This document shows positions 41,511-64,000 of a stretch of 64,000 nt of DNA, in pieces. Under the pieces are notes generated by a model, which saw only the letters and a program-made list of their open reading frames with translations, was not told the DNA's origin and did no database searches. The DNA is from Lepidurus packardi (lineage: Eukaryota; Arthropoda; Branchiopoda; Notostraca; Triopsidae), in contig JAKZAN010000001.1 in the NCBI GenBank assembly GCA_023053545.1, forward strand, positions 9,878,565 through 9,942,564, given 5' to 3'. How positions within the stretch are numbered: position 1 is the stretch's first letter; the number at the start of each line of letters is the position of its first letter. Both the position numbers and the translations under genes were made by a program.

Positions 41511-41583
41511 GGGGGTGTAGCTCAAATGGTAGAGCGCTCGCTTAGCATGCGAGAGGCACGGGGATCGATACCCCGCATCTCCA
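41511..41583 (+). tRNA. tRNA-Ala (AGC), copy 1, intact
   Basis: 73 nt without the CCA tail. The acceptor stem pairs GGGGGTG with CATCTCC and includes the G3:U70 wobble that identifies alanine tRNA. D-arm GCTC/GAGC, anticodon stem CTCGC/GCGAG with loop TTAGCAT (anticodon AGC), and T-stem CGGGG/CCCCG are all intact. A-box and B-box positions are conserved, so it should be transcribed by RNA polymerase III. Identical in sequence to copy 5. Confidence 0.95.
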
Positions 41584-42404: not shown

Positions 42405-42477
42405 GGGGGTGTAGCTCAAATGGTAGAGCGCTCGGTTAGCATGCGAGAGGCACGGGGATCGATACCCCGGATCACCA
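42405..42477 (+). pseudogene. tRNA-Ala (AGC), copy 2, degenerate
   Basis: Same length and anticodon loop as copy 1, but three base changes break pairing. The anticodon stem is CTCGG/GCGAG (one mismatch). In the acceptor stem GGGGGTG faces GATCACC, so position 70 is A (G3:U70 lost) and the 7-66 pair is G-G. Loss of G3:U70 would prevent normal alanylation, so I call it a tRNA pseudogene. Confidence 0.75.
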
Positions 42478-45722: not shown

Positions 45723-46139
45723 GTTGGCACTGATAGTTTTTATTGTTTTGCGTAAGGCTTGCGTAAGAAAGTAAGAACAGAAATAGACAGTTAATTGCCG
45801 GCTAAGTTTCAACGTTTGTTATGCTTCTGAAAAGTACGACTTGTCACCACACTTTGCTGTAGCACCACAATGTATCAAATCAAGTAGTCAAACTTTCGGA
45901 ACAAGATTTCTCGAAAATGGCTTGTCAGATTTTGAAAGCAAACTAAAACAAAAATTGTATTTTACTAGTAACTAGTGCACAATCAAAGGAAAGATTTTTA
46001 AGTAACGTATTTCTCATAGTTACAAACTTCATTTGCATATTGCTAATTAACTACCCACTAGAAAAAAAATCGTGCATTGATTGTACACTACTTGTTAGCC
46101 AACTCAGTAACATTGTAAAAGCATTTTTTCATCAAATCA
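45723..46139. mobile_element. TTAA piggyBac-like MITE, copy A, right part
   Basis: This continues the MITE interior: CACTGATAGTTTTTATTG, then the GCCGGCTAAGTTTCAACG block and the ATGCTTCTGAAAAGTACGAC block, ending near AAAAGCATTTTTTCATCAAA. The same blocks occur in reverse order in copy B. The terminal TTAA end is missing here, so the copy is truncated on the right. Confidence 0.7.
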
Positions 46140-46890: not shown

Positions 46891-47029
46891 CCTATCACCC
46901 TATACCTAAGCTAGTTCTCTACTGGTAATAACTATCTCTGGTCCTCCACAGTCTACTAACTGCGCCTGCTGTTCGACCAATCCCAATCCGGCAAATTGCT
47001 TTTTTTTTTAAACCGCAACACCACCTAAT

Positions 47030-47102
47030 GGGGTTGTAGCTCAAATGGTAGAGCGCTCGCTTAGCATGCGAGAGGCACGGAGATCGATACTCCGCATCTC
47101 CA
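47030..47102 (+). tRNA. tRNA-Ala (AGC), copy 3, slightly diverged
   Basis: The anticodon arm is intact with AGC, and G3:U70 is kept. The T-stem is CGGAG/CTCCG, a compensated change relative to copy 1. The acceptor stem reads GGGGTTG, giving one T5-T68 mismatch. It could still be functional; the single mismatch leaves that open. Confidence 0.75.
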
Positions 47103-47250
47103 AGAGTTACGTTTTCTTAAATATTTCTTAACATACGTACATTTCCAGTGCGGAGCTTCTCGGAAATACGAATGACTTTTTTGTGACTGACTTTTTTGTA
47201 ACTGATGCGTGCCATCCGAACCGAAACCTTTTGGATGGGGCTTCATCTTA

Positions 47251-47323
47251 CGGGGTGTAGGTCAAATGGTAGAGCGCTCGCTTAGCATGCGAGAGGCACG
47301 GGGATCAATACCCCGCATCTCCA
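47251..47323 (+). pseudogene. tRNA-Ala (AGC), copy 4, diverged
   Basis: The anticodon arm and T-arm are intact. The first acceptor position is C opposite C72, and the D-stem reads GGTC against GAGC with one mismatch. The A-box is altered at the same place (TAGGTCAAATGG). The copy is probably weakly expressed or a pseudogene. Confidence 0.6.
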
Positions 47324-47433
47324 AATTAATTTTTGTTACTTTCAATATTTAGGATAATTAAAATTTAAAACTGTCAATTTTTCTAAAGTTAAACCACAGG
47401 GATCTCTAGTAGCTACATGAAATACTTTTCAAC

Positions 47434-47506
47434 GGGGGTGTAGCTCAAATGGTAGAGCGCTCGCTTAGCATGCGAGAGGCACGGGGATCGATACCCCGCA
47501 TCTCCA
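47434..47506 (+). tRNA. tRNA-Ala (AGC), copy 5, intact
   Basis: Identical over 73 nt to copy 1, with G3:U70, anticodon AGC and all stems paired. A run of T follows within 20 bases (TCTTTTTTTC), a good RNA polymerase III terminator. Confidence 0.95.
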
Positions 47507-47779: not shown

Positions 47780-50168
47780 ATGCATAAGCAAATTCGATTG
47801 CTTCCGAGAATCAGAATATCTTTTTCTGATTGCGTTCGGTTTGTCCATAATTTTAAAAATCCTGTTCTAGGTAAGGCGATAAAGTATCCCTTACAATTAT
47901 TTATCCAAGAAAATTTAGATCAACAATTAAAACCTTCAGATATAGTAGAGCTAAAACAGAATTCTTTAAGCCAAGACAAACGACTCACGCCTATTAATTT
48001 CGACGCCAATTTTATAAAGACTTGCGCGGAAGTTAATGGTTTCAGCTTAGCGAAACAATATTTACACTACCTTCAATCAACCGGCCAGAAAATCAACAAC
48101 GCTGTACTAAATCGCTATATCAGTATCTGTTACCGGAATCCGGCAGATGTTGACAGCTCAGAAATTCTACGCTTGTGTCAACAATTAAAGTCCCAATCGC
48201 CGATATTAGACCAGTCAACAGTGGAAGCGCTTATTTTGGGTCTAAGTCTAACACCTGATTGGAGGTGCTGTCTACAGTTACTCACAGAGATGGAAAACGG
48301 CAGAATTTTAAAAGGCACTTGTTTTAACGCTGTTGTAAAAGCCGCTCTTCGAAACAGTGACTTGGAAACCGCCTTCCAATTCATGAGCCATGTGATGGAA
48401 GTCGATAAAAAAATTGACGAAGACATTTACGAATCCTGGCTAGATATCTGCCACGAATCCGATACCGAACGATTAATCCAGTTCTGGTCAGACCACGAAA
48501 TCTTGCCTAAGATTCAAAGCATCCGTAAGCTGCAACAGAAGTTAGACGCTCGAAAGGCTACGACCTTGGTCACCATCTCAGCCGAGTATGCATACAATAG
48601 AAGGTATTTTTACTGACCTAAATTCAAAAATTAGGGGTACCTGTCCAGCTTGTAAAGGGAAACTAAAACCTAATCGACTAAGTGAGACGGAGTTCGCTCA
48701 ATTACGTTCCTCTTTTCTGGAACGGGTTTTAAAAGGGAAAGACGTATTCCGCGGATCCACACCGAAAGAACTTGAGATCTTCCGTAGATATATTGCAGAA
48801 CACGCTCCTTTCGATACCGTCGTAGATGGATTAAATGTGGCGTACGTCCATGGGAGGAACAACAATAAGGCTGCTCAGGTAGAAAGCTCATGAACATCGA
48901 GCTTAAATTTTAATATTATTGTTTTTCTAAGTTGGTTAATCTAGTGAAGCATTATCCTAGCAAGCAGAAGCTCCTCATCTTGGGCAAGAAACACATGTTG
49001 AAATGGCCTGCAAGAGATATGCGCTTGGTTAGAGAACACGCCCTCTTCTTCGCCACCGATGATTTGTAAAAAAAAACAAAGGAGAACAGATTTAGTTAAA
49101 TCTATTGTGGATTAGGTCAAAGGATGATCCTTTCCTATTGTACGCGACCTTGACTAGTGGTCCTAGTACGTATTTTTTGTCGCGTGATTTGATGCGAGAC
49201 CACGCCTTTAAATTGGAGGATCACAGTTTGTCGCGTTTGTTCCGTAAATGGCAAAAAGCTCGGCAGTTGCAAATCACTTCTATGGACGCTAACAGTATTA
49301 ATATCCAAGTCCGTTCTATTTTATAAATTATTATATCTTATTATTCTCAAATAAACCAAAATACTTTAAGGCTTCCGTATATCTTAGCTTGGTATAGGCG
49401 ATTTGATGAAAAAATGCTTTTACAAGGCTACTGAGTTGGCTAACAAGTAGTGCACAACAAATGCACAACTTTTTCTAACGAGTATATGTATGTATTAGCA
49501 ATATGCGAATGAAGTTTGCAACTTTGAGAAGTACGTTACCTAAAAAGCTTTCCATTGGTTGTGCATTAGCTGCTAGTAAAAGAAAACTTTTGTTTTAGTT
49601 TGCTTTCAAGTCTGGCAAGCCGTGTTCGAGAAATCTTGTTCCGAAAGTTTGACGACTTGATTTGGTACATTGTGCTGCTACAGCAAACTGTGGTGACAAG
49701 TCGTACTTTTCAGAAGCAAAACAAAAGTAGAAACTTAGCCGGCAATTAGCTGTCTATTTCTTTTTTTACTTCTTACGCAAGTCTTACACAAACGCAAAAC
49801 AATAAAAACTATCAGTGTCATCTGTGACTCTTTCCTATCAATAGTCTAAAGGTATACGGGAGCCTTAATAGCGCGTTCCACTGTCTGCACAGGTGCAATA
49901 TTTTTACACTCCAGTGTGTGTACAGTGTGTAAACATATACATTTTTGACACACTGAGTGCCAAAAATATTGCACCAGTGCAGCTAGTGGAACGTGTTATA
50001 AGTGTAGAGTTTCTAAACGAAACTTTTCTTTGCAAACCATAGAAACCTCCCCTCCACTGGCCCGTAGCTCAGAAAACGGCTGAAAATTCCTGGCATATCC
50101 CTTACGATAGCGGCGAGGACCGTTATAGCTACGAACTGCCTCTTCACTGGTTATGTGCAGGAGTTTAG
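47780..50168 (+). CDS. PRORP: Mitochondrial protein-only RNase P catalytic subunit (PRORP/MRPP3)
   Basis: Five exons (47780-48603, 48635-48878, 48932-49065, 49116-49308, 50043-50168) give 506 residues; human PRORP has 583. It cleaves the 5' leader of mitochondrial pre-tRNAs, in animals together with TRMT10C and HSD17B10. A basic presequence and helical PPR-type repeats fill the first half. The zinc site has CPAC (Cys278, Cys281) and, in the last exon, WHIPYD (His483) and WLC (Cys503). The metallonuclease domain carries VDGLNVAY (Asp339), FATDD (Asp399, Asp400) and SRDLMRDH. Intron 1 is only 31 nt (48604-48634). Intron 4 is 734 nt and filled by two mobile elements; its donor GTCCGT is weak. 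Without splicing there, the frame stops at 49326 and lacks the second zinc-ligand pair. The gene is convergent with dynein, 111 bp between stops. Confidence 0.9.
49366..49868. mobile_element. TTAA piggyBac-like MITE, copy B, full length (503 bp)
   Basis: Flanked by TTAA on both sides, with short inverted ends TTAAGGCTTCCGTATA and, inward from the right, TTAAGGCTCCCGTATA. It contains no coding sequence. TTAA duplication and TTAAGG-type ends fit non-autonomous piggyBac-like elements, although other TTAA-using superfamilies exist. It lies within PRORP intron 4. Confidence 0.8.
49869..50000. mobile_element. Short palindromic foldback MITE (~132 bp)
   Basis: The left arm GCGTTCCACTGTCTGCACAG.. 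with GGTGCAATATTTTT pairs with a right arm ending ..CTAGTGGAACGTGTTATA, so almost the whole segment can fold into a long imperfect hairpin around TGTAAACATATACA. It abuts the TTAA MITE, and both sit in PRORP intron 4. Confidence 0.7.
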
Positions 50169-50279
50169 ACGTTATTGTGAAGCTGAATAATGTCATGTAT
50201 TAAGATTTTGCAAAGGTTTACACATGGACATTAACAATAATCTAAAACCCGACCGAATATTATTAACTGCAAGGAATTA

Positions 50280-64000
<13,721 letters not shown>

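Follow-up and report, generated by a model that had tools for sequence, protein, structure and literature searches.

The window, meaning the whole 64-kb stretch of Lepidurus packardi DNA that was analyzed, carries on its forward strand a five-exon gene identified by its sequence as an animal PRORP (MRPP3, the mitochondrial RNase P catalytic subunit), whose product would be expected to act as RNase P together with TRMT10C and SDR5C1. The neighboring gene, on the minus strand, encodes the cytoplasmic dynein 1 heavy chain (DYNC1H1). The five PRORP exons join in phase into 506 amino acids with zero internal stops, using the following features of the window.

47780..48603, plus strand: PRORP exon 1, amino acids 1-274 plus 2 nt, PPR region (basis, PDB alignment).
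48604..48634, plus strand: intron 1, 31 nt.
48635..48878, plus strand: PRORP exon 2, with zinc ligands C278 (48642-48644) and C281 (48651-48653) and catalytic D339.
48879..48931, plus strand: intron 2, 53 nt.
48932..49065, plus strand: PRORP exon 3.
49066..49115, plus strand: intron 3, 50 nt, donor TTT/GTAAAA.
49116..49308, plus strand: PRORP exon 4, with catalytic D404, D405 and D425.
49309..50042, plus strand: predicted intron 4, 734 nt, donor CAA/GTCCGT, acceptor CCATAG/A.
49309..49326, plus strand: continuation of exon 4 when read unspliced, five codons (VRSIL) and a TAA stop at 49324-49326.
49350..49355, plus strand: AATAAA hexamer, at chance level.
49366..49868, plus strand: element A, a TTAA-flanked MITE, body 49370-49864, TTAA at 49366-49369 and 49865-49868.
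49869..49998, plus strand: element B, a hairpin MITE, body 49871-49996, TA at 49869-49870 and 49997-49998.
50043..50168, plus strand: PRORP exon 5, with H483 (50094-50096), C503 (50154-50156) and the stop TAG, second half of the central domain.

The predicted protein matched the Pfam PRORP model (PF16953) with E = 1.4e-72 (244.6 bits, against a curated cut-off of 39.1) across residues 273-503, which covers model positions 2-242 of 242. Chains of the human mitochondrial RNase P catalytic subunit (PRORP) were its best solved relatives (best E = 5.9e-52). Human numbering of the ligand and catalytic residues was taken from PMC4415599. The catalytic aspartates D339, D404, D405 and D425 aligned with human D409, D478, D479 and D499, and the zinc ligands C278, C281, H483 and C503 with human C348, C351, H557 and C578, reported as zinc ligands in that source; all eight of the human residues checked had an identical counterpart here. 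The PPR region, the bipartite CCHC zinc/central domain, the NYN metallonuclease with four aspartates and the ending WHIPYD...WLC are common to this protein and to animal PRORP/MRPP3 (human PRORP; PDB 7onu, 8cbk, 4xgl, 4rou). It is an ordinary gene, its protein is an additional member of the PRORP family, and the understanding of RNase P is unchanged.

The frame that begins at 49116 ends at the stop 49324-49326 with the tail VRSIL and without the His and Cys ligands, as the sequence-only reading had stated; it was also correct in placing an exon at 50043-50168, in phase (phase 0) after the donor at 49309, that completes PRORP. Exon 5 alone (41 amino acids) was compared with PDB sequences at E ≤ 1 and gave four matches, all human PRORP chains (best E = 2.2e-4). 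When the whole assembly was searched in six frames with the Pfam PRORP model, this exon was again matched (E = 9.4e-5). In the alignment, the last residue of exon 4 (Q465) corresponds to human Q540 and the first of exon 5 (K466) to human R541, and the exon 4/5 junction aligns without a gap to Arabidopsis PRORP1. As the human central domain is given in PMC4477676 as residues 334-356 plus 545-583 (strand beta1 plus strands beta8-10), exon 5 is, on this alignment, the whole second half of that domain together with a few residues.

The first zinc half is present as the CxxC of C278 and C281. For the second half, PMC5039416 gives the signatures (W/Y/F)HxPx and (W/F)xCx2-3(R/K), and these were found as WHIPY and WLC, both in exon 5. 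This ending had been described as exactly that of the family, which holds for WHIPY and WLC but not for the residues beyond the last cysteine, where x2-3(R/K) is absent and the chain terminates WLCAGV. The short AGV tail, lacking the R/K of the published signature, is a difference from animal PRORP/MRPP3; lineage-specific variations of the signature are described in the same source. A failure to splice had been said to cost two zinc ligands. Both are indeed lost in the unspliced reading, but the statement was too narrow, since the second half of the central domain disappears entirely, with all four catalytic aspartates retained. At the start of exon 5 (KPPLHW, 50043-50060), a pair of prolines falls opposite the PPP motif of plant PRORP1 (534-536) in the alignment, a motif described in PMC4477676 as plant-specific; plant PRORP1 thus has PPP where this protein has PP, and human PRORP lacks the motif at that place.

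Candidate splice pairs for intron 4 combined any GT or GC donor within 49240-49326 with any AG acceptor no further than 50094, and the frame had to be open into WHIPYD. Nine in-frame open pairs were obtained. Full length was kept by 49309/50043 only; the other eight gave shorter products and cut into the stretch aligned with human and Arabidopsis PRORP. The yardstick for the donors was one neighboring gene, DYNC1H1, taken from a spliced alignment of its minus-strand sequence to the human protein. This alignment contained 22 introns, of which 50443-50515 was dropped (no AG acceptor) to leave 21; a hand-read intron at 62569-63539 (971 nt) was then added to give 22 donors, and the acceptor comparison uses 21.

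Position +3 was A or G in 22/22 DYNC1H1 donors and C in 0/22. Donor 4 of PRORP has C at this position, which is found in none of the other three PRORP donors. In the 22-donor matrix, donor 4 (CAA/GTCCGT) scored 3.49, under all 22 leave-one-out scores (lowest 4.39), and in the 21-donor matrix it scored 3.76, with one of the 21 DYNC1H1 donors lower. It nevertheless ranked second best of the 17 GT sites within 49116-49344, and the PRORP intron-3 donor was far weaker on the same matrix measure (-0.85). The earlier description of GTCCGT as a weak donor is therefore right in that the site is off-consensus, with C at +3, but donor 4, atypical as it is, is not the weakest in PRORP. DYNC1H1 introns longer than 300 nt (n = 4) had donors of 5.07-9.46 with A at +3, and next to these the weak donor of the long intron 4 is conspicuous. 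Its acceptor, at 50043, was lowish (3.48), with 4 of 21 DYNC1H1 acceptors scoring lower.

If the junction 49295/50068 were used instead, the protein would be 13 amino acids shorter and would keep both zinc ligands. This junction is in frame and open, and its donor (ACA/GTATTA) has the usual A at +3 and scores close to donor 4 (3.22 vs. 3.76, 21-donor matrix). However, a single residue would stand in place of 14 that can be aligned to both human and plant PRORP, and the acceptor at 50068 scores 1.76 against 3.48 for that at 50043, which makes its use extremely unlikely.

An AATAAA near 49350, ahead of the first MITE, had been read as a possible poly(A) signal for a shorter message. The hexamer is present at 49350-49355 and begins 24 nt past the early stop, and the first AATAAA past the full-length stop lies at 50396, with none in the 227 nt between. 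However, AATAAA occurs 153 times in the 64-kb window (98 on the plus strand and 55 on the minus strand), so one near a stop is unremarkable. It fails to separate the full-length from the truncated reading and was rejected as evidence for a short form.

The production of two mRNA forms in quantity, with intron 4 often retained or the message ending at about 49350-49370 to give a protein of 470 amino acids beside the full-length one, is considered improbable. It would fit the atypical donor 4, the in-frame stop inside the first 18 nt of intron 4 and the spacing of the hexamers after the two stops; the retained intron would also be the last of the gene, so presumably no downstream junction would flag the message for decay. 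Set against this are the abundance of AATAAA on both window strands, the undecayed state of exon 5, and the role of the zinc site, zinc being reported in PMC4415599 to stabilize the entire central domain of human PRORP. A minor truncated form of 470 amino acids from intron 4 retention is quite possible, but one that is both regulated and functional is unlikely as the evidence stands.

Intron 4 departs from the other three in length (734 nt vs. 31, 53 and 50 nt) and consists largely of two MITEs, both as had been claimed from the letters. Counted each with one flanking duplication (499 + 128 nt), elements A and B make up 627 of its 734 nt and leave about 107 nt. Element A has short terminal inverted repeats, close to GGCTCCCGTATACC, and shares its TTAA flanks, the shortness of its repeats and its many copies with piggyBac-type MITEs; we take it to be of this type, the superfamily being read from the TTAA flanks alone. 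It is a multi-copy element (40 places scored of 737 candidates), with related places on all six large contigs. Of its 39 other scored places, 29 were examined; 22 of them had both ends recognizable, and TTAA was present on both sides in 11 of these 22. Counted by end, TTAA was seen in 17 of 23 cases on the left and in 18 of 27 on the right. Several copies have about 50 nt extra near 49400, so the window copy seems to be deleted there.

Element B is presumably a Tc1/mariner-like, TA-flanked hairpin MITE, and has the TA flanks, the long inverted repeats and the near-whole-element hairpin of that group. It too is multi-copy (40 scored of 184 candidates); 29 of its 39 other scored places were examined, and 26 had both ends recognizable, with TA on both sides in 12. 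Over nearly its whole length, the window copy is predicted to form a single hairpin (-76.3 kcal/mol, z = -11.65). For the region 49290-50062, the predicted fold had -229.6 kcal/mol, compared with a mean of -170.3 for 20 shuffles, and in this structure element A has its two ends paired together and element B makes a hairpin of its own. It is very unlikely that the palindromic elements and the off-consensus donor turn intron 4 into a switch, in which co-transcriptional folding of the MITEs would pick between full-length PRORP and a protein whose catalytic site is complete but which lacks the second half of the zinc domain; if they did, an intron built by mobile elements would tune mitochondrial tRNA processing.

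The introns of DYNC1H1 (n = 21) had a median length of 72 nt and a range of 55-1349 nt, with 18 of 21 between 55 and 130 nt. The 61 nt between donor 4 and element A (49309-49369) were unmatched elsewhere in the assembly at E ≤ 0.001, very common words being skipped in this search, and a remnant of another repeat was ruled out for this segment on that basis. As the remainder of about 107 nt falls in the usual DYNC1H1 range and these 61 nt are unmatched, the comparison favors insertion into an existing intron over the creation of an intron by the elements. At the other extreme of length, PRORP intron 1 (48604-48634, 31 nt) is below the minimum (55 nt) of the 22 DYNC1H1 introns examined.

Of the 22 DYNC1H1 introns examined, the longest two, 52512-53860 (1349 nt) and 62569-63539, also contain copies or fragments of element A, as does the sequence upstream of PRORP at 45725-46138. 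These long DYNC1H1 introns resemble PRORP intron 4 in carrying element A but differ from it in having donors with the usual A at +3. Because element A occurs in them too, the setting of intron 4 is not very unusual, and the oddity that is left is the off-consensus donor on a long intron.

The two genes converge, their stop codons being about 110 nt apart (50168-50280); the DYNC1H1 end is not cleanly resolved. Upstream of PRORP, three tRNA-Ala(AGC) genes or gene-like copies were present within 478 nt (47029-47506), 273 nt before the PRORP start, with more tRNA matches at 41511-41583 and 42405-42477. Outside the window, COX1-family genes with stop-free frames were seen at three loci on small contigs (L065, L066 and L067, on contigs C52, C214 and C43); these contigs of the assembly may be bacterial. 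They contrast with many COX1-like inserts containing in-frame TGA, seen at a further locus (L068) and elsewhere on C1, C2, C4, C5, C6, C21 and C38, the large contigs included, which are probably mitochondrial in origin. At L068 there is also a frame of 347 amino acids that stays open with mitochondrial codes 4, 5, 9 and 13 and that we take to be ND2; together with the TGA codons it points to an invertebrate genome, perhaps that of an arthropod.

A second complete PRORP elsewhere, which the sequence-only reading had named as one of the cases that would tell against it, was not found in this assembly by six-frame searches, in which a far-diverged copy could escape. When the Pfam model was run in six frames against the 108.6-Mb assembly, all four matches at E ≤ 10 were exons 2-5 of this gene, and queries made from exon 2 (E ≤ 0.001) and from exons 3-5 (E ≤ 1) matched this locus alone. 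No intronless (processed) PRORP copy was found in the assembly with a query of 150 amino acids; this query crosses the exon 4/5 junction, and a spliced copy would therefore align across it.

The age of the element A insertion was gauged by comparing the window copy with the column majority of 29 other copies. It differed at 50 of 482 sites (10.4%), a value biased downward by the drawing of the 29 copies from the best matches to the window copy, and ranked 11 of 30 in divergence (range 9.2-19.2%). The insertion looks old, of about the same age as the compared copies, this being a relative age only. Had exon 5 been severed from the rest of PRORP over such a span, it would presumably have decayed. 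Identity to human was 43% (16/37) for exon 5, compared with 34% (27/80) for exon 2, 41% (18/44) for exon 3 and 51% (33/65) for exon 4. The apparent age of element A, taken with the continued conservation of exon 5, thus points to a working splice.

The same observations bear on whether the gene is being lost, with splicing over the MITEs having failed and exon 5 left as a relic. Only the long intron and the atypical donor speak for this. All exons are open, the gene is the sole PRORP found in the assembly, and loss of the PRORP enzyme is reported to be lethal in Drosophila (PMC10941002); moreover, divergence within the family marks the insertion as old, yet exon 5 resembles human PRORP about as closely as the neighboring exons do. 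Gene loss is scarcely credible on these grounds.

The best explanation, to which we assign a probability of roughly 0.86, is that intron 4 is spliced from 49309 to 50042 to give the full PRORP of 506 amino acids, and that the MITEs are old residents of its last intron. The intron probably started out ordinary, at about 107 nt, and would have grown to 734 nt when the TTAA-flanked MITE inserted, with the TA-flanked hairpin MITE adjoining. It is most likely still removed, and full splicing would yield the 506-aa protein with its CCHC zinc site of C278, C281, H483 and C503. The palindromic elements A and B may fold out of the pre-mRNA and so hold the splice sites close. Occasional retention of intron 4 through the atypical donor would give 470 amino acids with the four catalytic aspartates; this protein would lack the second central-domain half and is more likely a faulty by-product than a regulated form.

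The useful outcome is a warning for annotation, as intron 4 carries MITEs like other introns nearby and the PRORP family is known. A gene finder that halts at the first stop would report a PRORP missing half of the zinc-binding domain, and such a short annotation could mislead, in that the lineage would wrongly be inferred to have lost the zinc site. The locus also offers a small, testable case in which a probably essential gene tolerates palindromic elements in its last intron, behind an off-consensus donor.
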